Source: an uncultured Muribaculaceae bacterium (lineage in GTDB: Bacteria > Bacteroidota > Bacteroidia > Bacteroidales > Muribaculaceae). Taken from it: a DNA stretch of 64,000 nt. This document shows positions 43,389 to 64,000 of this stretch, one piece after another. The notes beneath the pieces are model-generated. The model ran no database searches and was not told where the DNA came from. It saw nothing but the letters and a program-made list of their open reading frames with translations. The stretch is from NCBI GenBank assembly GCA_944321725.1, contig CALUMI010000003.1:1-64000 (forward strand), in the 5' to 3' direction. Every line of letters begins with the position of its first letter. Position 1 is the first letter of the stretch. The position numbers and the translations under genes were made by a program.

Positions 43389-43459
43389 ACAGTTTGGGGG
43401 TTGTGACTATTTGGCACTCCGTTGTGACTGTTTGGCAATCATTGGCTTTGCACGTTTGG
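43389..43459. promoter_or_regulatory. direct repeats upstream of the small peptide gene
   Basis: TTGTGACTATTTGGCA (43401-43416) and TTGTGACTGTTTGGCA (43422-43437) repeat with a 21-base period, two helical turns. Further related 9-mers are ACAGTTTGG (43389-43397) and CACGTTTGG (43451-43459). This resembles the paired sites of LytTR-type response regulators. No such regulator gene is in the window. Confidence 0.45.
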
Positions 43460-43489
43460 CGCGTGTGATATGTTTTGTCTATACCTTTG
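43455..43489 (+). promoter_or_regulatory. promoter candidate of the small peptide gene
   Basis: TACCTTTG (43482-43489) is a good -7 box, 31 bases before the start codon. TTTG at 43455-43458 is 23 bases upstream, slightly too far, so an activator binding the repeats just upstream would make sense. Confidence 0.55.
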
Positions 43490-43519
43490 TAATCTGAATC
43501 AAGATAGGAGATTATAGAT

Positions 43520-43741
43520 ATGGAAAAAAGCAAAGTAAGGAAAGCATATCATCGTCCTGTTGTCAAGGTTGTTGAGTGGGATTTCAATGAGTCAATATGC
43601 GCCACGCCCTACGTGGCAAGTCCGTGTATCAACATAGACAATGGAAATGAAACGATAAGAATCGACCACCGCGCGAGCTATGGAAGAGATCATATAGAGT
43701 GGACAGACTGGCGTTCGGGTGGAAGTGTTGACAATAATTAA
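43520..43741 (+). CDS. 73-residue peptide, candidate substrate of the export system
   Basis: No signal peptide. The N-terminal half (KAYHRPVVKVVEWDFNE) resembles the leader-like K-Y-x-x-P-x-V-x-V-V-E motif of small Bacteroidales peptides. It is followed by a Cys-containing stretch (SICATPYVASPCINID) and a polar, Gly- and Asn-rich C terminus. It has its own promoter and is followed after 5 bases by a lipoprotein gene, with a PqqD-like gene and an S26-ABC exporter nearby. I infer that it may be a modified and exported peptide; there is no direct proof. Confidence 0.6.
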   Translation: MEKSKVRKAYHRPVVKVVEWDFNESICATPYVASPCINIDNGNETIRIDHRASYGRDHIEWTDWRSGGSVDNN

Positions 43742-43746
43742 ACGGC

Positions 43747-45027
43747 ATGGCGATTATGAAAGCGAAAATATTCAACGGCTTGTTGGCTGTAATGATGGTT
43801 GCCGGCTTTTTGTCGTGTTCCGATGAGAGCAATGAGATAGGGAAGGTTCCTTCGGCAAAGCCGGGAGTTTATTCTATGGATATAACTGTGTCGGCCGCTA
43901 ACGGCGATGGCTCTGATGCCAACATCTCATCCACGAGGGGTCTTGACCCTGATGGCGGAGTTTTTACGGAGGATTATCCGTATGACTATATATATGTGCA
44001 TTCCGATGACAATTATGAGGACGACCGTCATCAGGTGCTTAAAGTGCCTTTGAAAGAGGTAGAGTTTTGCGGCGATTGCCGCGGCATCCATTTGGAGTGC
44101 GAGGTGATGGACGATGGCAACGGATATACGATAAGCAACGAGGCCGGCGAATCGATTCATTTGAATGACGACCAAAGCGTGTATTTCTCCACCATACCGA
44201 CTCCTTTTTGGGAAGCCACAGTGGCAACTACTCCCACTCCGGTCAGCCTTAGTGATGTGTTTGTCGATGATCCGGACGTTAATCTCGAATTGCTGAGAAG
44301 TAAGGAGGACTATTCGAAAGACGAGTTGGTGGCTCTTTTGCAAGAAATGGCGCCTGTAATCACTTTGGCGAGGCACTGCACCGGATTCCGTGTGTATTTC
44401 ATGTTTACCAATGTAAGGTCAGAGGGTTCTACAAGCAATATGATAGATGAATATGAATGGGCAGACAATATGAATGGCTATTCTCCGTACAACTTTTATA
44501 TAAAGTTGTATTTTGGACCTAATTTCGCCCATAAATATGATATGCTCAACAACAGTGTTGTAACTAATGATGTCGAGGGAGGATATTATGCCACAAACAA
44601 TCAGACTTATCAGCCGTTTGAATATATGGAATATGATTTTACGGGCGGTTCCTCTTCCTCTAAAGGGCATTATTGGGGATACGGATATTTGACAGATGAC
44701 AATAAATATCTTTTGTCGCCTTTGAATAGCAATATTCCTGCTGAGGAATTCAGCCTGTATGCTTTTGTGAAGTTCAGCACGGTGGCGAATAACACTGACG
44801 CGGAGTTCCTTTCGAGTGACGCAGGCTCTAAGTATTTCCAAGCAACGATACCGGGCATGACGTTGGAACTCAACAGAGTACACTTTATTATATTGGCATT
44901 CCATTATGAGGACCTTAAGGCATTCTTGCCGGGTGAGGACGCTTCAGGCGTATCGACCCGTGCAGCAGGCGCGTGGGACGCTCCGCAGAAGATTGACATA
45001 AAGCCTTATAAGGTGATAGTAAAGTGA
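43747..45027 (+). CDS. large lipoprotein of unknown function (fimbrillin-like setting)
   Basis: 426 residues. The signal peptide ends in the lipobox LSC (GFLSCSD). The mature part starts with a region like Bacteroidales fimbrillin-family lipoproteins (KPGVYSMDITVSAANG), is acidic and ends KIDIKPYKVIVK. No catalytic motif is seen. It is 5 bases after the peptide gene, so the pair is cotranscribed. It ends in a strong terminator. It may be an immunity, receptor or surface component; this is not established. Confidence 0.65.
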   Translation: MAIMKAKIFNGLLAVMMVAGFLSCSDESNEIGKVPSAKPGVYSMDITVSAANGDGSDANISSTRGLDPDGGVFTEDYPYDYIYVHSDDNYEDDRHQVLKVPLKEVEFCGDCRGIHLECEVMDDGNGYTISNEAGESIHLNDDQSVYFSTIPTPFWEATVATTPTPVSLSDVFVDDPDVNLELLRSKEDYSKDELVALLQEMAPVITLARHCTGFRVYFMFTNVRSEGSTSNMIDEYEWADNMNGYSPYNFYIKLYFGPNFAHKYDMLNNSVVTNDVEGGYYATNNQTYQPFEYMEYDFTGGSSSSKGHYWGYGYLTDDNKYLLSPLNSNIPAEEFSLYAFVKFSTVANNTDAEFLSSDAGSKYFQATIPGMTLELNRVHFIILAFHYEDLKAFLPGEDASGVSTRAAGAWDAPQKIDIKPYKVIVK

Positions 45028-45068
45028 TGTTTGTGAATGTGACAGATAGATATGATTGAGATAATTCG

Positions 45069-45118
45069 TCCCCTGTTTGCGTAGAGTTGCCGGCTCTGCA
45101 TATTACAGGGGATTTTTG
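45069..45118 (+). terminator. terminator after the lipoprotein gene
   Basis: TCCCCTGT (45069-45076) pairs with ACAGGGGA (45105-45112) and is followed by TTTTT. An inner AGAG/CTCT stem extends it. Confidence 0.75.
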
Positions 45119-45169
45119 AGCTGAAAAGAATGGAATTACGTTTATAAGGGGATCTCATTGGTCGGAAAT

Positions 45170-45451
45170 ATGAAAGTTGCGATTAAGAAAGATTTTTTGC
45201 TCAGGAATGTGGCGGGCGAGAATGTGCTGATAGGATGCGGCGAGCAAATCAACTTCTCGCGGATGCTGATGCTCAACGACACGGCGGCACGCATTGTGAA
45301 GATGCTGCAAAATGGATCGGCTGCCACTGACGAGGATTTGGCGCGACAGATTTCCGAAGAGTATGAGGTGGGCTATGACGAGGCTTTTGGCGACGTGGGA
45401 GATGTGCTCGCTGCTCTTGAGGAGCAGGGAGTAGTGGTTTTGGACAAGTAA
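45170..45451 (+). CDS. PqqD-like protein (RiPP recognition element)
   Basis: 93 residues from ATG 45170. The winged-helix PqqD fold is indicated by FLLRNVAGENVLIGCGEQINFSRM, MLNDTAARIVKML and the C-terminal helix VGDVLAALEEQGVVVLDK. Such domains bind leader peptides of ribosomally made, modified peptides and pass them to modifying enzymes. It lies alone between a terminator upstream and a terminator downstream, and I see no clear promoter. It faces the S26-ABC exporter gene. Confidence 0.85.
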   Translation: MKVAIKKDFLLRNVAGENVLIGCGEQINFSRMLMLNDTAARIVKMLQNGSAATDEDLARQISEEYEVGYDEAFGDVGDVLAALEEQGVVVLDK

Positions 45452-45457
45452 AAAATA

Positions 45458-45566
45458 CGGATAACGCACGGCGCGTTATCCGAAAGCAGACGGTTGTGTT
45501 CTACGACCGTTTATATTGACTGAACAACATCGGGCTTGTGCTTTGTGAAAAGCGCAAGCTTTTTTA
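45458..45566. terminator. convergent terminators between pqqD-like and exporter genes
   Basis: CGGATAACGC/GCGTTATCCG (45458-45482) is followed by a U-run in the minus direction. GCTTGTGCTT/AAGCGCAAGC (45534-45559) is followed by TTTTTTT in the plus direction. Confidence 0.82.
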
Positions 45567-45574
45567 TTGTGTGA

Positions 45575-47656
45575 CTAAAGGCTTATTACGTTGTCGCATC
45601 TGTCGCGCACGGCGGCATGGTGGGTGATGAAGATAAATGTTTTTCCTGTATATTCCGTTTCAAGATTGTCCATCAGCCGGCGTTCTGTCTCGTCGTCGAG
45701 GGCTGAGGTAGCCTCGTCGAGCAGCAGTATGTGGCTGTCGCGCAGCAGGGCGCGGGCTATGGCTATGCGTTGAGCCTGCCCTTCGCTCAGTCCGCCGCCT
45801 TGCTCGCCGATGAACGAGTCCAGCCCTTTCGGGAGGGCGAATACGAAATCGGCCGCTGCCGTGCGCAATGCGCGTCGCATCTCCGTGTCTGAAGCGCGCG
45901 GATTGCCCATGAGAAGATTGTCGCGGACGGTGCCGCTGAAGATGGTGTTTCCTTGCGGAATGTATGTGAAATTGCAGCGTGTCGCCGGCGATACGGACGC
46001 GCTTTTGCCGTCTGCGCGGAGCTCTACTGTCCCCGATTGTGGCGAAGCAAGCGCGAGCAGCATCCGGACAAGTGTGGTTTTTCCGCGTCCTGTTTCTCCT
46101 GTCACGGCAGTTTTGCTGCAGGCGGCAATCCGGCATGAGAAGTTTTGGAACACAGGCTTGTCGCCACGGCTGTAGCGGAACGTCACATCGCTGATTTCGA
46201 TGTCTGGCGTATGCTCAAACCGTATGGGGCTTTCTTGCGGCTCGGCCGGCACTGACTCCAACTCACGCAACCGGTCGATTGACGTGAGCGATTCGGCAAA
46301 CAGAGGGAGCATACGCGATATGTCGAGCAAAGGGCCTTGCACCTTTCCCACAAGTTGCAGGAACGCCGCCATCGTCCCGAAAGTGATGATGCCTGCCGCG
46401 AGTGAGCCCAATCCCCAAAAAAACGCGACAAGATAGCCTGCCGCGAATGCCGCCGACACACAAGTGCGCGCCGATAGCGAGAAGCGTGTGCGCCGCATGA
46501 ACCCGGAGCGGAACTCGTTTTGCTGTCCGGCCAATTTGTCGACGCGGTCGCGGTCTTGCTCGAGAGCTTTTATTACGGTGCGCTGTTGCAGGCTTTCCTG
46601 TATGATGGATTGTATGCGGCTGTCGGTGGCTCGTATCTCGTGGGAATACCTGTACATGCGCCTCATGTAGAAACGGCTTCCTATCAGAAAAAACGGCAGA
46701 ATCCCGGCCACAATCCAAGGCAGCCATGCGTCCAAATAGCAGAAAAACGCGAATGCCGCCATGAGTTGTATGGCGGTGATGAAGAAAGCCGGAATGGTGA
46801 CGGTTAGCAGTCTGACCACAGCCGATGTGTCGCGCTCCACGCGGTTGACCACATCGCCCGTGTGGAAATGCTCCAGTTCGTTCCACCGGCTGCGGAGCAA
46901 CCGTGAGAAAAGGCGGTGGCGCAGATCGTTGCCTGCGTCGATTTGCACTTTGACGCCTATCCATCCGTCGACAGCATCGCAGGCTAATTGCAGCACAACC
47001 ACCGACGCGAGCGCGATGGCGTATTCCGCCAATTCTCCGGGCAATTTGCCTGACGCTATGTCGATAAGCTGTTTCGACAGGTAGATGAACAGCAGCGACA
47101 ACGCCACAGACAGTATCCCGGTCAGCATACTCAGAGCGATGGTGCGTTTGTGTCCCTTGACGGCTGTGCGCATATAGAGCAATGCGCCGTGCAGTTTGCC
47201 AAGTATTTTTCTTATCGGCAGCAACTTTTTCCAACATCGGGAATATGTGCGCCACACTGTTCCTGTGACTTTGTAAGTGCGGCTTTTGCGTATGAACGCG
47301 GTTGCGATGCCGGCCACGTTGTCAACGCTGCTTTCTTCGGTTGTCAGCGGATTGCCGTCGCCTTGCAGCGTCAGGCGGTTGCCGTCACGCATGACAATGC
47401 GGTGGAGCACCATCCGTCCGTACCTGTTTTCGCGGGCAAGCACCACATCACCCGGCTTGAGCGCGTCAGGGCGGCATTGGCATAATTCCACACTGTCGCG
47501 CCCGTCACGAAGAAAGGGCGACATACTTCGCCCTTTCACTGTGATGGTCACTCTGTGTCCGTCGTGCAGCAGCGCCGCTATTTCTTCCGACAGCACCTGA
47601 TTGTCGAAATATTGCCGACATTTGTCTGCCGTCCGGTTGCCGGTAGCGGGACTCAT
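45575..47656 (-). CDS. ABC exporter with fused N-terminal S24/S26 peptidase-like domain
   Basis: 693 residues in three parts. Residues 30-125 are an S26-type signal-peptidase-like domain with catalytic Ser44 in KGRSMSPFL, His85 in MVLHRI and LQGDGN, the Ser/His form known from SipW/Sec11-type enzymes. Residues about 170-440 are the six-helix exporter domain. Residues 470-693 are the ATPase: TGETGRGKTTL (Walker A), LSEGQ (signature) and ILLLDEATSALD (Walker B). In known peptide exporters of this design the peptidase is a C39 cysteine protease; here a serine-type domain takes its place. It starts 1 base after the OmpA-like gene. Confidence 0.88.
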   Translation of the reverse strand: MSPATGNRTADKCRQYFDNQVLSEEIAALLHDGHRVTITVKGRSMSPFLRDGRDSVELCQCRPDALKPGDVVLARENRYGRMVLHRIVMRDGNRLTLQGDGNPLTTEESSVDNVAGIATAFIRKSRTYKVTGTVWRTYSRCWKKLLPIRKILGKLHGALLYMRTAVKGHKRTIALSMLTGILSVALSLLFIYLSKQLIDIASGKLPGELAEYAIALASVVVLQLACDAVDGWIGVKVQIDAGNDLRHRLFSRLLRSRWNELEHFHTGDVVNRVERDTSAVVRLLTVTIPAFFITAIQLMAAFAFFCYLDAWLPWIVAGILPFFLIGSRFYMRRMYRYSHEIRATDSRIQSIIQESLQQRTVIKALEQDRDRVDKLAGQQNEFRSGFMRRTRFSLSARTCVSAAFAAGYLVAFFWGLGSLAAGIITFGTMAAFLQLVGKVQGPLLDISRMLPLFAESLTSIDRLRELESVPAEPQESPIRFEHTPDIEISDVTFRYSRGDKPVFQNFSCRIAACSKTAVTGETGRGKTTLVRMLLALASPQSGTVELRADGKSASVSPATRCNFTYIPQGNTIFSGTVRDNLLMGNPRASDTEMRRALRTAAADFVFALPKGLDSFIGEQGGGLSEGQAQRIAIARALLRDSHILLLDEATSALDDETERRLMDNLETEYTGKTFIFITHHAAVRDRCDNVISL

Positions 47657-47657
47657 G

Positions 47658-49418
47658 TTATTTCACATAACGTATTTTCACTTTCACGCAGCGGTTGAGT
47701 TTCGCGGCGAGGCCTTGTGTGCTCTTGTCGTCGACGGTGGCAATCGGGTCGGACAATGAGTTGAGAGCAAAATCATCGTCAGCGACAAATTGGAATTTGT
47801 CGTTGCCTTTCAACCATTTTGTGACGGTGTACGCGCGGTTGTAGGCAAGTTTTTTGTTGCGCTCAAGTCCTACCTTGTCGGCGTCTTTACCGTAATAGTT
47901 GTCTTGGCTTGTCGCCAAACCTTCGGCTACGACCGACAAAATGCGTCCTTTGGCAAAAATCTCCTTAATCCGGGCAACTGCCGCAGTGTCGGCAGCCTCT
48001 GCTATAAAGCCGTTGGCACCCTCGATGGCTGTATAGATGTCGGCAAAGCTGTAGAGCTCGGTGTCGTCAGGCAGATTCATGTTTTTCTTTACTATGTCCA
48101 AACCGTCGTGCGCGTTGAGGCTGTAGGAGTTTTTCTCCATGTAGTTGTCGTCCGACAGCAATTTTTGCGATATTGTTTCCTTGTCCACGCGATAGTACCA
48201 TGTGTTCCGTTTGTTGTACATCGGCGCATAGTAGTAGCCTGTCTTGTCCTTGAACGATTCCATGCTGTTCTCGTCCATGCTTAGCGAGATAGGCGCGTCC
48301 GACATCTCATAACCGCGTGCCACACCTTCAATCACGGCAGCCTCGCCGGCTTCCTCTGTTGGTATGTCGGATGTGCTGAGCGATGAGAGTTTTGAGCCTG
48401 TTTCCAACCGTGACGCTACAGCGTCGGTGTCATCGAATTTCTTTTGGGTGAAGATACCTGATGCCAAGTAATCTATGGCGTTGACTGGGGCGTCGGCTAC
48501 TACCGGAGCGTCATCACGACCGGAATAGTTGTTGGGGAAGAACACGTAGAACACCATTGTACCGTATTCCGGACATTCCTCTGCCGGAGTGATATAAGTG
48601 TTGTTGATATAGTATGTCGGTTGTCCGCAAGGTTGGCATCTGTCCCAATGACGGTCTTTGAAGTAGTATGTCACACCGACGCTGAGGCCGATGTTGGAGT
48701 CGAACCATGTGCTTCGCTCTCCGTTGCTTTTGAAATCCACCCCGTCGAAATTCGTCTGGTATGCCACGGCACGCGCTTTTACGTCCAACGACACGCGTTT
48801 TGCTGCGTTGAAGAAGCGGCTGTACTGTATCTCGAAATGTCCGCTCCACTCGTTGCGCTTGGCCTCTATGCCTCTGTGGTGTACGGCTCCGAGTCCTACC
48901 GACGCTATGAACTGGTTCATCAGCTTGTCGGATTCGCGGCCTTCGTAGCCGCAGAACAGTCGCGACAGGTTGAACATCGCGTTGACGTTCAAATCCCACC
49001 ATTTGTTTTTCGTTTCCCAATAAGCCTCTCCGTCGCCGTTGGTTATCTGCTCTCCGTCGAGAAAGTGCGTCGGCTCTTGGGTGTAGCCTCTTGAGTTCGA
49101 CATTCCAAACTGCACTTTCATACCTATGCCCGGAGTGAACCATTTGCCGACACCCACATTGAAGTCGGGCGACAGCAGCCCTTTGAATTTTCCCGTGCTT
49201 CCGTAGTCGCCAACGAAAGCGTGGCCGCCAATGTCGCCGAGCACGAACCAGTTATCCCAAAAACGATTGGTAACAACACGGTATTTATCGTCGGTAGGCT
49301 GCGGCAAAATTTCCGTTTCACCGATAATGGTATCTGAAACCACTGTCGTTTCCTGTGCATAGGCGCTGCCGGCGCATAATGCCGACAGTATCCACATCCA
49401 AAATACTGACTTTTTCAT
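47658..49418 (-). CDS. OmpA-like outer membrane protein
   Basis: 586 residues with a signal peptide (ILSALCAGSAYAQ). The N-terminal half is a beta-barrel (FVLGDIGGHAFVGDYGS, then FSRFFN-type strands ending in VGVTYYFKD). The C-terminal half has an OmpA-like stretch (GRILSVVAEGLATSQ, GLERNKKLAYNRAYTVTKWL), which would bind peptidoglycan. It lies between the nucleotidyltransferase (22 bases) and the S26-ABC exporter (1 base), so it may be the outer-membrane part of the same machine. The family is otherwise general. Confidence 0.8.
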   Translation of the reverse strand: MKKSVFWMWILSALCAGSAYAQETTVVSDTIIGETEILPQPTDDKYRVVTNRFWDNWFVLGDIGGHAFVGDYGSTGKFKGLLSPDFNVGVGKWFTPGIGMKVQFGMSNSRGYTQEPTHFLDGEQITNGDGEAYWETKNKWWDLNVNAMFNLSRLFCGYEGRESDKLMNQFIASVGLGAVHHRGIEAKRNEWSGHFEIQYSRFFNAAKRVSLDVKARAVAYQTNFDGVDFKSNGERSTWFDSNIGLSVGVTYYFKDRHWDRCQPCGQPTYYINNTYITPAEECPEYGTMVFYVFFPNNYSGRDDAPVVADAPVNAIDYLASGIFTQKKFDDTDAVASRLETGSKLSSLSTSDIPTEEAGEAAVIEGVARGYEMSDAPISLSMDENSMESFKDKTGYYYAPMYNKRNTWYYRVDKETISQKLLSDDNYMEKNSYSLNAHDGLDIVKKNMNLPDDTELYSFADIYTAIEGANGFIAEAADTAAVARIKEIFAKGRILSVVAEGLATSQDNYYGKDADKVGLERNKKLAYNRAYTVTKWLKGNDKFQFVADDDFALNSLSDPIATVDDKSTQGLAAKLNRCVKVKIRYVK

Positions 49419-49440
49419 GTTGATAAAATATAATTAGTAA

Positions 49441-50499
49441 TTAAATATTTTTGTTTCTGTTGAATATTGTCTTGACACGCCGTTTTGCCATGTGTCCCAA
49501 AAAGCATAATGTTTCTGACGGCGACACGGGGTATAATCTCAACTCGCGCCTTGTCCAGAACAACGAGTTGCTCAATATCCGGAAAAACGCCGGGCGGATG
49601 CGGCTTGTCGCCTCCATGCGGTCGGTCTTCAGCCGGTAGCCGTTGCCGAGTATCACATCGCGCAGCAGCCCGAAGTTTCTGCCCGAGCGTATCGGCAGTA
49701 GCGGATAGTCGGTTGCCACCCCTATATGCAGATCTATAAATCCGAACAGAAGGCGGCTGAAATATCCGATACCTATGTGCTTCAATATGCGTGCTGCCTT
49801 TTGCCGGTCCAATTCCGCGAAATACAGCATCGCAGCCAAGTCGCATACGGCTTTCAGCCCGATACCGTAGGAGAGGAAATGCCGTTGCAGATGCGTTATC
49901 AGGCATGCGAAGTACAGCTCGTTGCTGTCGCTGTATTCCGGGTCTCCGCATAGGCGTTGGAGGCGTTTGTTGGCAAACGGGTTGTAGACATATTCCATGC
50001 GCGGATGAAATTCTATCGACAGCCATTTGCCATCGCTGATTGTCAGCCCGTCGGAATCCTGTTTGTAGGGAATGCCTTTTGAGCGCAGGAGTTTTACCAG
50101 TCTGTCATAGCCGGAAGTTATCACCATGTCGATATCTCCGTAGCTGCGGTGCAGCGGTTCCGGATACCACGTCGCCACAGAGCTGCCTTTGAATATTTTT
50201 GAGCTTATTCCGTTTTCTTTCAGGCTTTCCTGCCATTGCAGCCCGTATTTTGATATTGCCTTGTTTGTCTGCTCTATATGCAGCAAATGCGCTATCCATT
50301 TGTCCCATATATCGCTGTCGGGTCGCATGGTTGTCCGCGATATGCCGTCAATCAGCAATCCGGTGACGGCTTGCTCCCTTGCCAACTCGAACAGGCGTAT
50401 CCATTTCTCGCGTGGAATGGCCGGGCCTGTGTATGCCTCGTCGGTTTTCCACAGCCCTTTGCGAATGAAGTAGAACAGCAAACTTTCGATATCAGCCAT
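49441..50499 (-). CDS. NTP_transf_5 family nucleotidyltransferase
   Basis: 352 residues. The nucleotidyltransferase motif is KIFKGSSVATWYP followed by SYGDIDMVI, with the GxS and paired acidic residues of the fold. Members of this family occur in lasso-peptide-type and similar peptide clusters next to PqqD-like proteins and S24/S26 peptidases, where they modify the precursor or an intermediate. It overlaps the upstream GT2 gene by 8 bases, which ties it to the polysaccharide operon. Confidence 0.85.
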   Translation of the reverse strand: MADIESLLFYFIRKGLWKTDEAYTGPAIPREKWIRLFELAREQAVTGLLIDGISRTTMRPDSDIWDKWIAHLLHIEQTNKAISKYGLQWQESLKENGISSKIFKGSSVATWYPEPLHRSYGDIDMVITSGYDRLVKLLRSKGIPYKQDSDGLTISDGKWLSIEFHPRMEYVYNPFANKRLQRLCGDPEYSDSNELYFACLITHLQRHFLSYGIGLKAVCDLAAMLYFAELDRQKAARILKHIGIGYFSRLLFGFIDLHIGVATDYPLLPIRSGRNFGLLRDVILGNGYRLKTDRMEATSRIRPAFFRILSNSLFWTRRELRLYPVSPSETLCFLGHMAKRRVKTIFNRNKNI

Positions 50500-51262
50500 T
50501 TGGAAATCTTTTTCTGAAACGAGCGTCGATGTATTGCGGCACTTTCCACCCCATTTTCATTAGTTTCTCGGGTACACCCATAAAACCGTGCTTGCGGTAC
50601 ATTCTGATGTCCTCTTTCCACATTTGTATTTTTTTGTTGGTTGATGTGGAAAGCCCTCCCATCCGCATCTTCACTATGTATTTGTCAAGATATTCCACGT
50701 GCAGGTTTGTTTCGTAGAGGCATCTGACGAGAAAATCCGAGTCGGCTGCTATTTTATATGTTTCGTCGTATAGTCCGCATTGCTCTATCACGTTGCGCCT
50801 GACATATACGGTGGGATGAAGCGGCAGCCAGCCCAATCTTACTTTCCAACGCCTGTAATTTCCGCTTATCCAATCTCTTATCACTTTGTCGGTTTGTGCG
50901 GCGTCGACATACAGGCCGTTGCCGTAGACGAGGTTTGCCTTCGTGCTTTTAAACACGCTGACAATGTCGGAAATGATATGGTCGCTGAGGAAAAAATCGT
51001 CGGAATGCAGCAGCCCGATGATTTCGCCGGTAGCCGCCTTTATCCCTTTGTTTATCGCCTCATACATGCCTTTGTCGGGCTCTGATATGATTTTTGCTAT
51101 ATTTTTCCGGTAAGAATTTATTATTCTTAATGAATTGTCTTTGCTCGCCCCGTCGACCACTATGTACTCAATGTCGGGATAGCTTTGGCTTAATACGCTC
51201 TCGATGGCTTGTCCGATAGTCGCCTCACGGTTGTAGCACGATGTGATTATTGAAACTTTCAT
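50492..51262 (-). CDS. family 2 glycosyltransferase
   Basis: 256 residues with a GT-A fold: SIITSCYNREATIGQAIESVLSQ at the N terminus, VVDGASKDNSL and HSDDFF carrying the DxD-type site. It adds a sugar to the lipid-linked polysaccharide unit at the cytoplasmic face. It is close to WfgS-type enzymes of colanic acid and O-antigen loci. It lies 3 bases after the next GT2 gene. Confidence 0.88.
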   Translation of the reverse strand: MKVSIITSCYNREATIGQAIESVLSQSYPDIEYIVVDGASKDNSLRIINSYRKNIAKIISEPDKGMYEAINKGIKAATGEIIGLLHSDDFFLSDHIISDIVSVFKSTKANLVYGNGLYVDAAQTDKVIRDWISGNYRRWKVRLGWLPLHPTVYVRRNVIEQCGLYDETYKIAADSDFLVRCLYETNLHVEYLDKYIVKMRMGGLSTSTNKKIQMWKEDIRMYRKHGFMGVPEKLMKMGWKVPQYIDARFRKRFPNG

Positions 51263-51265
51263 TGT

Positions 51266-52147
51266 CTATTTTATGCAAATCGTTTCGAGATATTTTCTGA
51301 TTTTGTCGCTGTCGAAGCTGTATTGTTTTTTTATCTCATACACTTTCGCGTCGGCCAATGTGCGGTACCACCATCCTTGCAGAAAGTGCCACAGAAAGCC
51401 TTCTTTTCCGTCGAGAAATCCCAACCGGAAGAAATAGCGGTAGACGAAAAAGGCGAAAGCGCGCCAGAACAGCGGCAGCTTCACGTATTTCAATTTCTTT
51501 TGTCTTACGGCGGCGGTGTGCCGGCCGGATTTCGTCAGGCTGTTGTCGTGCATTCCGTATTCGGTTAACAGCAGGTCGAGAGCCTCGCGCGTGGCGTAGC
51601 CGTTGTGTTTTGCCGTCCACCATGTGAGGCCGTTGAGATTGTCGTCGTAGAATGGCGATTTCAGCTCTTCTACGCTTCCCTCTGTCACCTCAATGTGCTC
51701 GTCCATGAAGCGGTTTTCGCAGGCGGCGTGTCCGGTGCGGAACAGCCGCAGCAATATCAAAGGGATTATTCCGTGGTGTATGTACCGTCCCATGAATATC
51801 CGCAGGCATGGGGCGGTGAAGCCTCCTGTGCCGGAGCTGGCAGAAGGCAGGCGGCGGTGCAGCTCGTCGACGAGCTCGTCTGACAGATATTCGTCGGCAT
51901 CCATCCGCCATATCCATTCGGTTGTTATCGGCAGGTTGCACAAAGCCCAATTAAATTGCCTTGAATAGTTCTCCCATTTGTTTTGATAGACTTCCGCTCC
52001 CAGCGAACGGGCTGTCGCCACGGTGGTGTCGGTGGAATAGGAGTCGACCACATAGATTTTCTTTGCGAATTTCCGTGCGTTTTCAATACAACGGCGTATG
52101 TGTATCTCCTCGTTGTAGGTGAGTATTACTACAGAAATGTCAAGCAT
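51266..52147 (-). CDS. family 2 glycosyltransferase (WaaE/KdtX-like)
   Basis: 293 residues: VVILTYNEEIHIRRCI, VVDSYSTDTTVATA and WIWRMDADEYLS are the usual GT2 motifs of WaaE-type enzymes that add glucose to a core or repeat sugar. It is 6 bases after the acyltransferase gene. The donor and acceptor sugars are unknown. Confidence 0.85.
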   Translation of the reverse strand: MLDISVVILTYNEEIHIRRCIENARKFAKKIYVVDSYSTDTTVATARSLGAEVYQNKWENYSRQFNWALCNLPITTEWIWRMDADEYLSDELVDELHRRLPSASSGTGGFTAPCLRIFMGRYIHHGIIPLILLRLFRTGHAACENRFMDEHIEVTEGSVEELKSPFYDDNLNGLTWWTAKHNGYATREALDLLLTEYGMHDNSLTKSGRHTAAVRQKKLKYVKLPLFWRAFAFFVYRYFFRLGFLDGKEGFLWHFLQGWWYRTLADAKVYEIKKQYSFDSDKIRKYLETICIK

Positions 52148-52153
52148 TGTATG

Positions 52154-52690
52154 TCAGTGATTTATTATTCTTTTCTTCAGAAATTTGGCGGGATTGCCGC
52201 CGACAACGGTCCATGGCTCAACGTCGCGCACCACTACCGCTCGCGCGCCTATCACAGCCCCGTCGCCTATGCTTACGCCCGGCCCGATGAACGCTTCCGC
52301 GGCCACCCATGCACGGTCGCCGATTGTGATAGGCTGCTCCGTCTGCCGGTGGTCGGCCGAGGCGATGTCGTGGGAGGCGGTACACAGATAGCACCGTTGT
52401 GACACTGTGGCGTTCTCTCCGATTGTCACGGGAGCCGCGTTGTAGCAATCTACTCCCGATGCGAGGCAGGAGTGCTCTTTCATTTCCAAATGCCACGGCA
52501 TGAACACCTTTGCTGTGGCGTAGACATACGCTGTATCGGCTATTTTTGCCCCGAACATGCGGAGCAGCAGCCGTTTCCATGCCATGAGAGTGCTTTTCGG
52601 AAATGGCCGCGCAAGCGTGTTCCAGCATATTGTCCATATCATTCGCCTTACGCGGTTGCCTGTGGTGTAGGGCGATGTGAATCCGTCCAT
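52154..52690 (-). CDS. left-handed beta-helix acyltransferase
   Basis: 178 residues. Hexapeptide repeats ([LIV]-G-x4) are seen in AYVYATAKVFMP, VTIGENATVSQ, ITIGDRAWVAAEAFIGPGVSIGDGAVIGARAVVVRD. The catalytic His is likely in CTASHDIASADHRQ. It is a WcaF/maltose-O-acetyltransferase-type enzyme, and probably acetylates a sugar of the repeat unit. It starts 4 bases after the second acyltransferase gene. Confidence 0.87.
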   Translation of the reverse strand: MDGFTSPYTTGNRVRRMIWTICWNTLARPFPKSTLMAWKRLLLRMFGAKIADTAYVYATAKVFMPWHLEMKEHSCLASGVDCYNAAPVTIGENATVSQRCYLCTASHDIASADHRQTEQPITIGDRAWVAAEAFIGPGVSIGDGAVIGARAVVVRDVEPWTVVGGNPAKFLKKRIINH

Positions 52691-52694
52691 TTCT

Positions 52695-53282
52695 TCAGTC
52701 GATGTAGTTGTAGCGGTATTTGTTATATTCTTCTTTTGGTATGCGTTCTCCTTTCACCTGACACGGCGAGCCGAAAGCAATCACGTTTTCCGGCACGTCT
52801 TTTAGAACCACGCTTCTCGCGCCTATCACAGCCATTTGCCCGATGGTCACGCCTTTGCCGATGTAGGAGTCCGCACCGATGAACGCCCCGTTGGCGATTG
52901 TTACAGGCTCGCGCTCTGACGCGAAATTTCTTTGTCTTACGTTATGTCCGCCGGTGTAAATGTGCACGAAATTCGAGATGCTCACATAGTCGCCTATGGT
53001 GACCTTGTCGGAATTTTTGATGAAAACATAGTCGTCGACAGATGAGATGTTGCCCATTGTGAGATTCCAAGGCATGTAGATTCTTGCCTTTGGCGATATA
53101 TAGCACCCTTTTCCGATTTTTGCGCCGAACAGCCGGAGCAGGAATACCCTCCAGCAGGAAAGAGGGTTGGGGCTTGTCTTGAAAAGCAAACTGTCGGCAC
53201 ACCTCCAGATTTGCAGCTTTATTTTTTCGCGGACGCTCATGTTCTGTGTGGCGGCGTTCCGCTCAAACCATAATTGGCTCAT
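52695..53282 (-). CDS. left-handed beta-helix acyltransferase, second copy
   Basis: 195 residues with the same fold: KGCYISPKARIYMP, VTIGDYVSISNFVHIYTGGHNVRQ (His), ITIANGAFIGADSYIGKGVTIGQMAVIGARSVV. It is distinct from the previous one and probably modifies another position. It is 1 base from the ligase gene. Confidence 0.87.
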   Translation of the reverse strand: MSQLWFERNAATQNMSVREKIKLQIWRCADSLLFKTSPNPLSCWRVFLLRLFGAKIGKGCYISPKARIYMPWNLTMGNISSVDDYVFIKNSDKVTIGDYVSISNFVHIYTGGHNVRQRNFASEREPVTIANGAFIGADSYIGKGVTIGQMAVIGARSVVLKDVPENVIAFGSPCQVKGERIPKEEYNKYRYNYID

Positions 53283-53283
53283 G

Positions 53284-54618
53284 TCAGTTTCTAAATTCGC
53301 TGATTATGTACCTGTGTTTGCCTCTGTCGGATGGTATGTCGGTTGTTTCCACCAATTTTACGGGCAAAGATGTCTTGTTCCGCAAATTGTCGGCCACGGC
53401 GTTTATCTCTTTGTCGCTGTCGGTGTGGTTATTGTTTGGCACCACTAAAAGTTCCACGCTGAAATCTTTTTTCTGCCTTATCTGAAAACTTGTTATCGCG
53501 TTCGGGCAATCATCGAATATCGTTGTCAGCCATTCTCCTGAAACAAATCCACCGCCGGGAGTGATGAGATTGTCGGTGATGCGTCCTTTGACAGGCGACA
53601 TGCGCGGCAGGCGGCATCCGCAACTGCAATCGCCTCCGACAAGACATGATTTGTCGCCCACCCGGTATTTGATTATCGGAAAACCGAAATTTGTCAAATC
53701 GGTCAGCAGCACATCTCCAATGCGGCCTTCCTCTGTGATGAGCTTGTTGCCGTCGGCAATGTCGATGTGCCTGTAGTCCCAATTTATATGCAGGTCGGCA
53801 GAACTGTGACAACTGAACGCTATAAAGCTGACCTCGTTGCAGCAGTAGAGGTCCAATATGGCGTCTGTGCCGAATGCCCGGCCGATTATTTGGCGGTCTG
53901 TCGCCGAGAGAGGCGACGCAAAGGCAATTATGAGCTTGGGAGTGGTGACACGCATATTGCCGGATACGATATGGCGCGACATTTCCGCGATGCTGCCTGC
54001 GTATCCGTTGATTATTCCTCCCGTGCGGTTGAAACGCCTGATGAAATCTATTATGTCGTGTGGAGTGATGCCTGTGGCTTCCATCTGGATTCTTTTGGTC
54101 GGAAACCAGATTATTTTGTTTTTCAGCTTGTTTGCCGGCGATAGCCAACTATCCGGTATTCTCCAGATTTTTGCCATGTTGCAGGCCGGTGACACATTCC
54201 ACAATTTCAGCATTCTCCATTCCAAAATCTCCTGATTGAACCGTGAGTCGTGATAACAAACCAACGGCTCTCCTGTGCTTCCGCTTGTGGTGTTGGCTCT
54301 CATCAAGCTGATGTCGGCGGTGAGTATGCGGTCGGAGTTTTTGCGTATCATCTCTTTTTCAACGACCGGCACCTTCTCCCAATCGGCGGGTTGGCGCAGC
54401 TGTGAGGGGTGGAAGCCTTCTGCGTCGTAGTAGCCGTGATAGAACAGGCTGTGGTTGTAGGCATGTTCCACTATGGCTTTGCGTTTCGCGAAATTAAGTT
54501 CAGCCAATTCCTCTTTGCCGAGTTTCAGTTGCCGCAGGCTGCGTTTGTATTCTTCTGTCGCTTTGTGGCGCAACAGTGTGTTTTTAGACCAGAATGCAAA
54601 ATCTTTTATGGCTCCCAT
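53284..54618 (-). CDS. CapK/PaaK-like adenylate-forming ligase
   Basis: 444 residues of the phenylacetate-CoA-ligase-like family found in capsule loci (CapK). The phosphate loop is RANTTSGSTGEPL, and the later LLTDLTNFGFPIIKYRVGD and CGCRLPRMSPVKGRITD segments match. It probably activates an acid for transfer onto a sugar or amine. The ATP-grasp gene is next to it, so an amide-linked substituent is possible. It contains CSCGC, which may bind zinc. Confidence 0.82.
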   Translation of the reverse strand: MGAIKDFAFWSKNTLLRHKATEEYKRSLRQLKLGKEELAELNFAKRKAIVEHAYNHSLFYHGYYDAEGFHPSQLRQPADWEKVPVVEKEMIRKNSDRILTADISLMRANTTSGSTGEPLVCYHDSRFNQEILEWRMLKLWNVSPACNMAKIWRIPDSWLSPANKLKNKIIWFPTKRIQMEATGITPHDIIDFIRRFNRTGGIINGYAGSIAEMSRHIVSGNMRVTTPKLIIAFASPLSATDRQIIGRAFGTDAILDLYCCNEVSFIAFSCHSSADLHINWDYRHIDIADGNKLITEEGRIGDVLLTDLTNFGFPIIKYRVGDKSCLVGGDCSCGCRLPRMSPVKGRITDNLITPGGGFVSGEWLTTIFDDCPNAITSFQIRQKKDFSVELLVVPNNNHTDSDKEINAVADNLRNKTSLPVKLVETTDIPSDRGKHRYIISEFRN

Positions 54619-54621
54619 TTC

Positions 54622-55581
54622 CTATTTTTCTTTCATAATTTCGTAGTAATTGCAGTGTTCTCCCACCATTTCCATGAACTCGTAGTCGGGATTGTGGTTG
54701 CCTTCTATCAGCTCGATGCCGTCCTCGCGGACTGCCACATCCCAACCTATGAACCGGCATTGCGGGACTGTTGTCGCGGCCTTTCGCACCGTGTCGGTTA
54801 TGTCATTCCAAAAAGGCACTTGAAAACCGGGCATGAGTTTGCCGTTGGCAAACGCGGTTCGTTGGTAGTTGTGGTTCATGCCCCGTCCCTTGACATATCC
54901 GTACTCGGGATCTATCGGAAAAAATGTGCCTCCGGCGCAGAAATTGTCGACAATGGAATCGCCGGAGCCGATTCTCAGCACTGTGGTGAGAATCTTTGCA
55001 CGGCCTTTCTTGTCCAGCAGTGTGACTACCCTTATGGTGTTGACCGATTTGTTCTCAAATCGCATCTTGGGGTGCTGTTTGATTACTTCTTCTATCAGTA
55101 CATTGCCGGCTTTCAGCCGATTGTAATTCTCTTCTGAAATGAATTGGACGGTGACAGGCAATTTTCTGATGCCGTTGCCTTGCCAATCGTTTGTCGGCTT
55201 GACGATTATTTCGCCGATTGCCGAGCAGAAACCGGCAAATTCCTCATAAGTGGAATCTTTCAGATACAGCCATTTCCTTTTTATGTAGGGCTTGAATGTT
55301 GTGTTGAACAGCGGTTTGTTGTCGAAATGGCAGATATATTTCGGGTCGTTGAATGTTCTGACAACTTTTTCCCAACGCTTGTATGACAGCACTCTTCCGC
55401 TCTCAAAAAGGCGCAAATCGTAAATTTGGCCTGCTTTGTAGTGCTTCATTGTCCCTCCTGTCCTTAAATAGAACAGCAGGAAGTCGGTGTAGTAGAACAA
55501 AGCCGTCTTATGTTTCTCTTTTGCCAAAGTGCCGGCCATCTCGTGCAATGTGCGCAGATAGTAGCTGAAGTTTTTGCTCAT
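54622..55581 (-). CDS. ATP-grasp enzyme, sugar-transfer-associated type
   Basis: 319 residues. The ATP-grasp features are IIVKPTNDWQGNGIRKL, VLIEEVIKQHP and FIGWDVAVREDGIELIEGNHNPD, and the sugar-transfer-associated ATP-grasp family (PF14397) is the closest I know. It forms an amide or ester with ATP hydrolysis. It overlaps the neighbouring GT4 gene by 4 bases. Confidence 0.8.
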   Translation of the reverse strand: MSKNFSYYLRTLHEMAGTLAKEKHKTALFYYTDFLLFYLRTGGTMKHYKAGQIYDLRLFESGRVLSYKRWEKVVRTFNDPKYICHFDNKPLFNTTFKPYIKRKWLYLKDSTYEEFAGFCSAIGEIIVKPTNDWQGNGIRKLPVTVQFISEENYNRLKAGNVLIEEVIKQHPKMRFENKSVNTIRVVTLLDKKGRAKILTTVLRIGSGDSIVDNFCAGGTFFPIDPEYGYVKGRGMNHNYQRTAFANGKLMPGFQVPFWNDITDTVRKAATTVPQCRFIGWDVAVREDGIELIEGNHNPDYEFMEMVGEHCNYYEIMKEK

Positions 55582-56669
55582 AGTGTGCCGGTATATTGTT
55601 TGTACAGTTGTTCGGCCATTGCTTTTGCCGAATATTTCCGCTCTATCAGCATCCGTCCGTTTTCTCCCATCTCTCTCAGTTGGCAGGGATTGAGCTTGGT
55701 GAAGCGCAGAATCGAGTCGGTCAGCTCGGAGAGGTCTCTTTCAATCCATGCTCCGCAATGCGCGGTTTCCAAATCTTCCCAAGGGGTGTCGCGCGTTGTT
55801 ATGACAGGTGTGCCGCAGGCCAACGCTTCGGCAACGACATATCCGAAATTCTCGCCGTATGTGGGGAGCACGAAAAAGTCGCTTTGCCGGAATAATTCCC
55901 ATTTTTTGTCGCCATAGACGGCGCCGGTGAATTCCACGATATTCTCTAATCCCAATTCGGCGACGCGCGCTTTAAGCGACGCGATATACTCAGGCTCGCC
56001 GTCGCCGGCGATTGTCACTTTGTGGCCGTCCAAGTTGCAGTGCAGCCGGTGTAAAGCGTCCAACAGCAATTCAACTCCTTTTTTCTGGTGCAGCCGCGAA
56101 AGGTACAGAATCCTCTTCTTGACGCTCCAATCGGTCTTCATCGCTATAGTCGAGATGTCGATGCCGTTGGGGATCATAGCTATATTGTTGTTGATGCCCA
56201 ACCGCAGTATGTTTTGCCTCTCGCTTTCAGCGGTGGAGATTAGTTTGCGCGCCTTTTGCAAAGATTTTCGTTGGTAGAGAAGCATTGCAAGCCGTTTCTT
56301 GTGATAATTTCTGTGGAGAATCCATGGCTCAAGCATCCCGTGCGGGGTGATGAATGTCGGGATTTGTCGTTTTATCGCCTCCCGCTGAAATTGCCAAGTC
56401 TGGTACATCCAAATGCCGTTGATGTGTACGATGTCGGGCTTGAGCCCGTCAAGAAGATTTCGCCATTGGCGCAGGTATTTGTGCGATTGCGACAAGTAAA
56501 GAGGGATGAACACCACTTTGCAATTCTCCAAATGGAGCGGATTTTTTGTGTGCCATGTCACTACAGTCAGGTCGACCAATTTTCCTAATTCTTTGGTCAG
56601 CAACTGCATATACATCGACACTCCGCCCAGCGAGCGGTCGATAGCCGTCACAAAATGCACCACTTTCAT
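55578..56669 (-). CDS. family 4 glycosyltransferase
   Basis: 363 residues, GT-B fold. VTAIDRSLGGVSMYMQLLTKEL, then VHINGIWMY, and the donor site VLPTYGENFGYVVAEALACGTPVITT with the E-x7-E motif. It overlaps the neighbouring genes on both sides by 4 bases. Confidence 0.9.
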   Translation of the reverse strand: MKVVHFVTAIDRSLGGVSMYMQLLTKELGKLVDLTVVTWHTKNPLHLENCKVVFIPLYLSQSHKYLRQWRNLLDGLKPDIVHINGIWMYQTWQFQREAIKRQIPTFITPHGMLEPWILHRNYHKKRLAMLLYQRKSLQKARKLISTAESERQNILRLGINNNIAMIPNGIDISTIAMKTDWSVKKRILYLSRLHQKKGVELLLDALHRLHCNLDGHKVTIAGDGEPEYIASLKARVAELGLENIVEFTGAVYGDKKWELFRQSDFFVLPTYGENFGYVVAEALACGTPVITTRDTPWEDLETAHCGAWIERDLSELTDSILRFTKLNPCQLREMGENGRMLIERKYSAKAMAEQLYKQYTGTL

Positions 56670-57757
56670 ATCTCCGTAGATGTTTGGGTCAGTATCTCGG
56701 CCAAAAATGCTTTGCTGTCGTTGATGAGTTTGATAAAATCATCGGAGTAGGCTATTTCTTGGAAGGAATCGGTTAGAGCGAGTATTTTTCCGGTTTCTTC
56801 CATTTCCACATACCGGTTTCCCAAGCCTGTGATGTCGAATAAGGTCAGGAAACGGTTGTTCATTCTCTTGCCGTTTTTCCGGGAGATGGTTACAAACTGC
56901 GTTTTGAGAATTATGGACAGCAGAGTGGAATGATAAGAGTCGGTTATGACCACGTCGCTTTTGTCGATAAGCCCTATCCATTCCGGAATGGAGGGAGTGC
57001 GGTCCGATTTCAGCCCATTTCCGTTGGGATTGGTGTAGACAACGTTGTATTTCTCTTTTAAAGCCGTCATTAATTCCGTCAGTTCATTGCAATTCTCCGA
57101 CAGCACATAAATGAATATGTTTTTCTTTCCGTTGGCCGGAAACACTGCCGCGGACTCTATTTCTCTCCATTCGCCGGCATCTATCAGTGCGACAGGGTCG
57201 GCAACAAGCCGTGATTTTATGTTTAGCCGTGAGCAGATGTCGGCACCGGATTTCTCGCGTACTGTGACAGCCGAGAATTTTGAGAGGGCATTGGTGAAAT
57301 CCTCAATCTCATTACCGTTTAGGCGGTCGCGTCCGAAACTTGCCGCATAGGATATTTTTTTTACGTTGTCGCTGAATCTCAGCAGATACGCGTTTCTTCT
57401 CGAAGTGTTGCGCATGTAATTCCACACTTGGTCGCTGCCGGCGATGAGCAGGTCGGCCTCCGGCGGACGGTTTCTCAGCCGGCTGTATGAATGATAGAAC
57501 TTGCCGGAGTATTTGATGCGCGATTTAAATTCTTTAAAGCGGCGTTTTTTCCGGCTACTGAGATAAACCGGCAGCCGTCCGGCAGCTATGAGCAGCAACA
57601 GCTCTTTGACGCGCGACAGCAGACTGCTGAACCGTATTATGAACGCGTCGCAGTGTTGTTGCTCCAAATATCTCTGCAAGGCGTAGCCTTGTATGATTTG
57701 GCCGTAATTGTCACTGCTGTTCCACAGTGTCATCACTCCGATTCTTAATTTTTTCAT
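56666..57757 (-). CDS. polysaccharide pyruvyl transferase family protein
   Basis: 363 residues: RIGVMTLWNSSDNYGQIIQGYALQ at the N terminus, AGSDQVWN, ISYAASFGRD and VVITDSYHSTLLSIIL are typical of the CsaB/WcaK family. It transfers pyruvate from phosphoenolpyruvate to form a ketal on a sugar. It is 1 base from an FrhB-like gene, a pair often seen in polysaccharide loci. Confidence 0.88.
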   Translation of the reverse strand: MKKLRIGVMTLWNSSDNYGQIIQGYALQRYLEQQHCDAFIIRFSSLLSRVKELLLLIAAGRLPVYLSSRKKRRFKEFKSRIKYSGKFYHSYSRLRNRPPEADLLIAGSDQVWNYMRNTSRRNAYLLRFSDNVKKISYAASFGRDRLNGNEIEDFTNALSKFSAVTVREKSGADICSRLNIKSRLVADPVALIDAGEWREIESAAVFPANGKKNIFIYVLSENCNELTELMTALKEKYNVVYTNPNGNGLKSDRTPSIPEWIGLIDKSDVVITDSYHSTLLSIILKTQFVTISRKNGKRMNNRFLTLFDITGLGNRYVEMEETGKILALTDSFQEIAYSDDFIKLINDSKAFLAEILTQTSTEI

Positions 57758-57758
57758 C

Positions 57759-58964
57759 TTAGCGTAAAATCCTGTATGAGTGCATCAGTTGATGCAGTTT
57801 CAGTTTGTGTGCCACGACTGATATGCTGTCTTTTATTTTTTGCTTAAATGGCTTTTTCGTCAGCCTCATGATTAAAGGTATGAGGGGCTTGTCATCGTAA
57901 AGCTCCCTGAAAAACAGCTCACGCTTCGGATTGTATGACGCACTTTTAAGCGCGTAATTGTTATAATCCACATAAGCCTGTTTGAACGAAAGGCAGGTCC
58001 TTTCGTATTTTGTTGTGTCTATCGATTTGAGGAAAGCGGCTCCTTTCTCTGTGTTTACCGCGATGCAGCTTGCCCCTTTGTCGTCATTCCATTCCGGATG
58101 GTTTGTCCATACGCCCCAAAAGTCTGAAAGGGTCAGGTCGGAGCCTGAGCTGAAATGCTTGAATTTGCATTCATGGCACGATGGGCGCAGATATAAATCA
58201 TAGAGAAAACCTCTGACGAAAGGGTTGGCATATCTGCTTTCTGTGACGTTTGCCGCTTTCCCGTCGGGGTATTCTTTGTGGTAACAAAATCTGATGCTAA
58301 TCCACCCGTTTTCCTTGTTGCGGAAATTTATGTCTTTTATTTTTATATGATTGTTGTCCGAGATAGTTGCAAGATATTTTTGCCAGACAGCCGGGCTTGG
58401 AACTCCGTGGCATACGAAATCCACTGCAATCAGATTCTGAAAGTCTTTGCCGAGAAAAGAGCGAAGGCCCGCTATTTGGCACGGTGTGCCGACAAACAGC
58501 ACCTTTCTGCCGGCTTTCAGAAATTCTCCGGTTTGCCTGTATGTGGCTCCTATGGCGGATTGCACGTATTTGCTTCTTCTTAATGTGTCGATGTCGCCTG
58601 TTTTCTCTATGTGTTTGTGGACTACATTGTTGTCTTTGTCAAATCCTGCTCCGAACACTATCCCGTTGTCTGACAATACGGCATCTGCCAACAGCTCGAA
58701 CATTCCGCCTGACGAGGCGGCTGCCAAACTTTCGCTGTCGGCGTTGCGGCAGCCATAAATACAGATGGGTGTGCGTGCACGGTGCTGCGGGTCAAGCATC
58801 GGGCAACGTTTCTCGCACAGTCCGCAATCTACACATTCTTGCATGTTTACCGACGGGTACAGAAACCCCTCTTTGCCCGGGAGCATGGAAATACAGTTCT
58901 TCGGACAAATATTCATGCACGCGAAGCATCCGCAGCAGTCGGTCTTGTCGTTAATCGAAATCAT
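57759..58964 (-). CDS. FrhB/FpoF-like iron-sulfur protein
   Basis: 401 residues. The N terminus carries two 4Fe-4S ferredoxin motifs (CCGCFACMNICP and CVDCGLCEKRCP). The rest matches the coenzyme F420 hydrogenase beta-subunit C-terminal family (VGTPCQIAGLRSFLG, FVCHGVPSPAVW, SDLTLSDFWG). Bacteroidales have no F420; here it is probably a flavin-linked redox enzyme on a sugar or pyruvyl intermediate. It overlaps the GT4 gene by 4 bases. Confidence 0.87.
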   Translation of the reverse strand: MISINDKTDCCGCFACMNICPKNCISMLPGKEGFLYPSVNMQECVDCGLCEKRCPMLDPQHRARTPICIYGCRNADSESLAAASSGGMFELLADAVLSDNGIVFGAGFDKDNNVVHKHIEKTGDIDTLRRSKYVQSAIGATYRQTGEFLKAGRKVLFVGTPCQIAGLRSFLGKDFQNLIAVDFVCHGVPSPAVWQKYLATISDNNHIKIKDINFRNKENGWISIRFCYHKEYPDGKAANVTESRYANPFVRGFLYDLYLRPSCHECKFKHFSSGSDLTLSDFWGVWTNHPEWNDDKGASCIAVNTEKGAAFLKSIDTTKYERTCLSFKQAYVDYNNYALKSASYNPKRELFFRELYDDKPLIPLIMRLTKKPFKQKIKDSISVVAHKLKLHQLMHSYRILR

Positions 58965-60064: not shown

Positions 60065-60088
60065 TGTGGTGTTTGGGCGTGTATTTGC

Positions 60089-62313: not shown

Positions 62314-62318
62314 GCCGA

Positions 62319-63371: not shown

Positions 63372-64000
63372 TTGTTTCTTAATCCCGTTAATTTGTTGGC
63401 CGCGAAAGTTTGGGTGAATAATCTTTCGTCTTTATTTAATCCTATGAAATAGATTGAGGCGGTCGTGGTTATGGCGGAGAATGCCGTAATCGCGACCAAT
63501 CTCTCCCAACATTCCGGCATATAGACGCTTACGATGATTGGCAGCAAGAATGCCGGCACGGATACTTTTATTATGGTGAGAATCACTTCCGCGATAAATC
63601 TCTTGAATGCTATTTGCTTCTGTTTTTGCAGTATCCATGCCCCGACAAGCGAGGAGATGAAAGAAAAAATTATAAAGACAACGCTCGACGATTCCGGTAT
63701 GCATCCGTTTTTATAGATTATAAAAGACACGGGTAGTATGAGAATCATCACGCTGTTGACGGCTAATTGATAATTCCTCATGTTTCCGTTGGCTACGGCG
63801 GTTGTGTTCAGCGGATTGCTGATTGACGCTGTCAGTGTCCAAAAAACTGCCAACTGCGTGAACAGCACAGCGTGCTCGGGCACGTAGCCAAGCCAAAAAC
63901 GCAGAAGAATTTCCGCCTCGTAGAATAGGGGGACAGCGATAAGCAGCATCAAATAATATGAGAACTTGATGCTTCGGAACACTAATTTCTGCATTTCCTG
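63359..64000 (-). CDS. polysaccharide flippase (Wzx-like), C-terminal part
   Basis: The frame is open to the right edge of the window (two more codons before the ATG at 63994), so only the C-terminal 213 residues are visible. They form about six membrane helices with FWLGYVPEHAVLFTQL and NPLNTTAVANGNMRNYQ, a pattern of Wzx/RfbX flippases, which are normally 450-500 residues long. It moves lipid-linked repeat units across the inner membrane. It is upstream of all other genes of the operon seen here. Confidence 0.78.
   Translation of the reverse strand, partial: QEMQKLVFRSIKFSYYLMLLIAVPLFYEAEILLRFWLGYVPEHAVLFTQLAVFWTLTASISNPLNTTAVANGNMRNYQLAVNSVMILILPVSFIIYKNGCIPESSSVVFIIFSFISSLVGAWILQKQKQIAFKRFIAEVILTIIKVSVPAFLLPIIVSVYMPECWERLVAITAFSAITTTASIYFIGLNKDERLFTQTFAANKLTGLRNKWKK

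Follow-up and report, generated by a model that had tools for sequence, protein, structure and literature searches.

A candidate system for peptide phosphorylation and export joined to a polysaccharide operon in an uncultured Muribaculaceae bacterium

The genome of an uncultured Muribaculaceae bacterium (2.53 Mb, 99% complete) encodes a precursor peptide, a free-standing PqqD-type protein, an HprK-like kinase, an NTP_transf_5 enzyme and a peptidase-exporter fusion, and part of this gene set is embedded in a polysaccharide operon. The genes form a genuine and coherent set, and its co-occurrence across genomes is above chance. We propose that the leader of the peptide would be gripped by the PqqD protein, that the peptide would then be phosphorylated by the kinase, decorated by the NTP_transf_5 enzyme and cut and exported by the fusion, and that the product would have a role at the cell surface; we give this whole scheme a probability of roughly 0.7.

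The stretch of DNA that was analysed, here called the window, comprises 64,000 nt (positions 1-64000 of contig C3 of the source genome, G000). All six genes of the initial annotation were found again at the same positions (Table 1), as was the pattern of short gaps and overlaps by which it had tied the exporter and NTP_transf_5 genes to the glycan operon: from 45575 to 60089, back through the polysaccharide genes, neighbouring genes are separated by 1-24 nt or overlap by 4-8 nt. The HprK-like kinase, UpxY, Wza and Wzc were absent from that annotation because they lie just beyond the end of the window. The kinase gene is located downstream of UpxY and of a likely invertible promoter.

Table 1. 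Features of the locus. Positions are those of the window; entries marked G000 C3 lie on the same contig.
Feature	Position	Strand	Basis or remark
Match to Bacteroidales -7 promoter box (TAnnTTTG), TACCTTTG	43482..43489	+	Consensus match only; 30 nt before peptide ATG
Precursor peptide, 73 aa	43520..43741	+	Profile matches and common leader
Partner lipoprotein, 426 aa	43747..45027	+	Lipobox GFLSC by sequence; one relative, in L090, same arrangement
Free-standing PqqD/RRE protein	45158..45451	+	PF05402, E = 1.9e-11; N40, D79
S26-ABC fusion	45575..47656	-	ABC domains 2e-31 and 3e-24; S44, H85, D100
OmpA-like outer membrane protein	47658..49418	-	Via a relative with PF00691; conserved in system loci
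NTP_transf_5 nucleotidyltransferase-like enzyme	49441..50499	-	PF14907, 1.9e-24; KG..R..GDID..ExH intact
Polysaccharide operon: glycosyltransferases, hexapeptide transferases, ATPgrasp_ST, pyruvyl transferase, FrhB-like, GT8, acyltransferase	50492..63994	-	
MatE-like flippase	G000 C3:63362-64897		Operon continuation beyond window end
Wzc	G000 C3:64922-67351		Operon continuation beyond window end
Wza	G000 C3:67364-68158		Operon continuation beyond window end
HprK-like kinase	G000 C3:68620-69486	Glycan-operon strand	4.6 kb beyond window end
UpxY	G000 C3:69932-70516		Beyond window end

The precursor peptide matches no family in Pfam or NCBIfam. Its leader contains Y10xxP13 and VVEWDFNESICATP and is followed by a variable tail. 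The short ORFs near PqqD and kinase genes have YxxP in common, which is the motif bound by PqqD-type recognition proteins. The leader consensus KKxYxxP..V..[VLI]x[LV]E..[IF][CA]xxS is common to 43 peptides, whose alignment spans 25 residues and needs no more than one gap. Counted from Tyr at 0, with Pro at 3 (both were selection criteria for some of the 43 rows, which the other columns were not), a basic residue is found at -3 in 93% of the peptides, aliphatic residues at 10 and at 16 (98% each), Glu at 13 in 29 of 43 and small residues at 17-20. Ser or Thr occurs at positions 18-21 in 42 of the 43.

The catalytic and leader-gripping residues that we examined are conserved, and the active sites look intact. 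For the PqqD protein ATG 45170 is the likelier start; its Asn and Asp are invariant in 16 proteins and align with N33 and D70 of LppB, D70 being located by counting back the tag of 9x8z_B, which we take to be LppB. The RRE profile matched the lasso B1 protein TfuB1 (4e-9) better than 9x8z_B (3e-4), and the best matches of the predicted RRE structure (pLDDT 91) were lasso B1-leader complexes. The kinase carries the His-Lys-Asp-Asp motif described for kinases of phosphorylated lasso peptides, with H136, K157, D176 and D177 invariant in 15 proteins. Pfam matches the peptidase domain of the S26-ABC fusion only weakly (S24, E = 0.007), and this domain aligns over its whole length with stand-alone relatives that match the archaeal-type signal peptidase I model TIGR02228 at 5e-11, below its cut-off. 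The Ser, His and Asp listed in Table 1 are conserved, and more than one Asp may correspond to D93 of LppS. The exporter half is MsbA-like. Peptidase-containing ABC exporters carry a C39 domain, in whose place S26 stands here, and a second such peptidase-exporter fusion, of 805 aa, is present in locus L081. The NTP_transf_5 motif is invariant in 10 relatives. The OmpA-like protein has no Pfam match itself; a relative (2e-57 to the window protein) matches PF00691 at 2.2e-8.

The initial annotation had proposed to look for the same set in other Bacteroidales genomes, and it is indeed conserved there. A strong S26 match was present in 20 genomes of the family, all 20 with PqqD and kinase, and 16 of these 20 also had a detectable peptide; in the other four the profile detected none. 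A family-level peptide profile, built from nine short YxxP ORFs near system genes, matched in 17 of 149 genomes of the family, and 17 of 17 had PqqD and the HprK-like kinase. For peptide versus PqqD in the 149 genomes Fisher's test gave P = 3e-16, and P = 8e-9 when the nine seed genomes were left out; like all P values for co-occurrence given here, these ignore kinship between genomes and are guides rather than exact probabilities, and the seeds of the profile came from PqqD loci. A signal-peptidase-like protein was found in 16 of the 17 peptide-bearing genomes, G116 having the peptide and no S26 match. PqqD itself was found in 17 genomes by single sequence and in 26 by profile. At the level of the order, the profile seeded in the family only matched a further six genomes, of which five had the kinase, and a leader-only profile gave uninterrupted short-ORF matches in 11 genomes, several of which had served as its seeds, 10 with kinase and PqqD (9 of 10 without G000, P = 6e-8). 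The other weak matches were in long ORFs or contained stops.

Relatives of the kinase occur in at least 584 stretches of GTDB genomes. Among the best 80 of these loci, PqqD was nearby in 54 and an S26 peptidase in 50; the family-level profile found two peptides there and the YxxP pattern a few more, a census limited by the shortness of the sequences. In Prevotella-type genomes the precursors may be dispersed or more divergent. Dispersed precursors were found in genomes G258 (21 matches) and G202 (16 matches), on many contigs and far from the enzyme locus, and the regions fetched around them contained short ORFs with variable tails. In many relatives a single set of enzymes appears to act for numerous scattered precursor genes, up to about 20 per genome. 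Prochlorosins likewise have one enzyme set and many precursor genes spread over the genome, with different chemistry and enzymes; to our knowledge they show no pairing with lipoprotein genes.

Such pairing is a feature of the present system. In the window the lipoprotein gene starts 5 nt after the peptide gene, and where a gene starts no more than 70 nt downstream of a peptide it is lipoprotein-like in 23 of 27 cases, as judged by a crude lipobox rule that picks out 11.7% of background genes. The peptide gene mostly precedes the lipoprotein gene in G202 and in the family of the window, and in G258 most peptides lie a few tens of nt behind a large gene, several of these with a signal peptide. 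Neither the window lipoprotein nor eight partner lipoproteins of relatives match a family in Pfam or NCBIfam. An AlphaFold2 model of the lipoprotein, made with its one relative, reached pLDDT 34 and was discarded. The pairing could be co-regulation only. Still, most precursors found adjoin a gene for a secreted or surface protein, from which function can be approached directly, and short Bacteroidota ORFs of a so far unannotated class gain a testable role. A wider reading, which we hold tentatively and at a little below an even chance, is that of a distributed system in which one set of kinase, RRE and peptidase-exporter acts on as many as about 20 peptides, each with a lipoprotein or secreted protein as its genomic neighbour, and so equips many surface proteins, some of the loci being switched together with polysaccharide.

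The relatives of the PqqD gene within the family lie in two layouts. One is a cluster with a stand-alone S26 peptidase, the HprK-like kinase, NTP_transf_5 and an ABC exporter. The other is the end of a polysaccharide operon, in the order Bac_transf - PqqD - NTP_transf_5 - HprK - Wza - Wzc - short peptide - lipoprotein - (x) - OmpA-like; in several genomes of this layout the S26 gene is found farther down that contig. Locus L090, from Candidatus Phocaeicola excrementigallinarum, has OmpA-like, S26, peptide, lipoprotein, kinase, ABC and PqqD genes within 7 kb; its lipoprotein is 31% identical to that of the window, NTP_transf_5 was not seen, and no glycan gene was found among the system genes. 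This compact locus argues that the glycan operon is not essential to the system. A GT1 glycosyltransferase with a C-terminal PqqD fusion is encoded in two family genomes (L020 7369-8799 and L043 6642-8084). Loci L045, L046 and L047 (genomes G066, G088 and G022) represent, within this family too, a second, more divergent kind of PqqD and HprK-like cluster (kinase E ~1e-7), in which no YxxP peptide was found. A contig labelled as a Rickettsiales MAG (L106) has Bac_transf, NTP_transf_5 and kinase as in the Bacteroidota loci, and its label is possibly a binning error.

The initial annotation noted that such enzymes recur in lasso-like and other RiPP clusters; by core gene set the closest relative is instead the LPP (Linear Polyphosphorylated Peptides) system of the Paenibacillus lpp cluster, described in 2026 as a Bacillota-restricted family whose role was left unknown (PMC13381572). 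The LPP core set of HprK-like kinase, discrete RRE, archaeal-type signal peptidase, MsbA-like exporter and NTP transferase is also present in the G000 locus; both systems have a precursor with a YxxP leader and a variable tail, the equivalents of RRE N33 and D70 and the His-Lys-Asp-Asp of the kinase are present, and LPP clusters, like the window system, often lie within polysaccharide loci. In contrast, the LPP leader YxxPxVLxHQxIxFETxxS is not matched by the window-type leader, which has no HQ and no FET, and LPP clusters have 1-3 precursors whereas the Bacteroidota system has up to about 20 dispersed per genome. The latter also differs in phylum, in the fusion of the window peptidase to the exporter, in the OmpA-like partner and in the pairing with lipoproteins or secreted proteins. 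Likened to LPP by gene set and residues, the system would be new in its occurrence in Bacteroidota, in the fusion, in its dispersed and paired precursors and in its probably phase-variable polysaccharide operon. Among the papers searched we found no report of the system in Bacteroidota, and the LPP-type gene set looks widespread in this phylum, outside its stated range. Paeninodin, pseudomycoidin and BsfA (PMC9266682, PMC10368454) share with it the RRE, a YxxP-type leader, the HKDD HprK-like kinase and a nucleotidyltransferase that hexosylates phosphoserine. The HPr-rel-A/SynChlorMet cassettes (TIGR04352, TIGR04353, TIGR04249) also combine an HprK-like kinase with a PqqD-like protein. All matches to these models were far below the curated NCBIfam cut-offs (15.8 bits versus 200 for the TIGR04352 kinase, 24.8 versus 35 for the TIGR04353 PqqD), and identity with the HPr-rel-A/ScmC cassette was therefore rejected.

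The gene set, its co-occurrence, the common leader, the intact active sites, the fusion and the pairing with exported proteins are facts at the level of sequence; from them we infer leader binding, phosphorylation, an added group, a cleavage site, export and a surface role, because characterised relatives (LPP, pseudomycoidin, paeninodin, BsfA) use the same enzymes. The free-standing PqqD protein would grip the YxxP leader through Tyr and Pro, as LppB does with N33 and D70 (PMC13381572). Phosphorylation is the likely first modification since the system has an HprK-like kinase, which would act on a Ser or Thr shortly after the end of the leader; in LPP the residue that LppK phosphorylates is core Ser3 (PMC13381572), and in BsfA phosphorylation is faster with the RRE (PMC10368454). 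NTP_transf_5 would add a group to the phosphate, most likely a hexose, as PsmN adds hexoses to phosphoserine in pseudomycoidin (PMC9266682). This step is the weakest of the scheme, because no activity of LppN could be detected in the LPP host (PMC13381572). The signal-peptidase-like domain would remove the leader, probably near the [IF][CA][AGST] site. In LPP the SpI-like LppS cuts the leader together with LppB, with F at -3 and T at -1 (PMC13381572), a pattern matched here by [IF] at 16 and a small residue at 18, which would place the cut after leader position 18. Alternatively, the F-E of LPP might correspond to [LV]E at 12-13; we weakly prefer the cut after position 18. The fused ABC exporter would move the core out, and the product would act at the cell surface with the OmpA-like protein and the partner lipoprotein, while the cell makes a polysaccharide encoded by that operon too. 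Of the earlier suggestion that the peptide is nucleotidylated or glycan-linked and then cut and exported, modification, cutting and export are well supported, the set being conserved, and nucleotidylation is less likely: the enzyme more probably decorates phosphoserine with hexose than simply nucleotidylates the peptide. A glycan link is possible, given the GT1-PqqD fusions in two genomes.

These fusions, together with the phospho-hexose precedent in pseudomycoidin and the gene order Bac_transf-PqqD-NTP_transf_5-HprK-Wza-Wzc, would also suit a peptide that is not exported free, with PqqD guiding glycosyltransferases and the phosphorylated peptide serving as attachment point or primer for the polysaccharide of the operon. 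We consider this unlikely, since L090 combines peptide, kinase, PqqD, S26, ABC and OmpA-like genes and no glycan gene was found among them, and since the peptides of G258 and G202 are far from the enzyme locus. The tight pairing with exported-protein genes could also be expected of phosphopeptides that stay in the cell as regulators or chaperones of the partner lipoproteins, but the set comes with a linked exporter, which in the window is fused to the peptidase, so that we give this very little credence.

A lasso peptide cluster that has lost its cyclase and protease, or has them elsewhere, was rejected and seems highly improbable. PqqD does resemble lasso B1 proteins in sequence and fold, and some lasso clusters use a kinase and NTP_transf_5 for tailoring. 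In line with the initial annotation, however, the lasso-type protease PF13471 had no match over its cut-off in 20 system-bearing genomes including G000, and a signal-peptidase-like protein, the predicted leader cutter, is present in nearly all peptide-bearing family genomes. No asparagine-synthetase-like cyclase was found among the locus genes scanned, and in these respects the locus differs from those of phosphorylated lasso peptides. That the peptide and lipoprotein genes have nothing to do with the PqqD and exporter genes beside them is scarcely more credible and was likewise rejected. The pair is encoded on the strand opposite to the glycan operon and has a promoter-like box of its own, but PqqD follows next on the same strand, L090 has the same pair beside kinase, ABC and PqqD, and the co-occurrence holds where the peptide is on another contig. 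A phosphorylated, cut and exported peptide is the reading that we prefer.

A perfect 28-nt inverted repeat around 145 nt (G000 C3:70599-70799; L034 7599-7799) lies upstream of UpxY, between UpxY and a tyrosine integrase gene, and the repeat occurs in the G000 genome at this site only. The arrangement probably acts as an invertible promoter for the entire glycan, kinase and exporter operon, as known from Bacteroides capsule loci, and the polysaccharide operon is probably phase-variable. A TACCTTTG box inside the inverted repeat, located by eye, points away from the operon in the present assembly, and by this direction the switch would be OFF. The peptide and lipoprotein genes have a promoter-like box of their own and may be outside this control; TAnnTTTG-type boxes matched 52 times in the window versus 41 expected by chance. 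Lastly, the glycan operon encodes a PaaK-like adenylate-forming enzyme (window 53284-55581, no Pfam match at 0.01) beside the ATPgrasp_ST protein, which may activate an acid for decoration of glycan or peptide.
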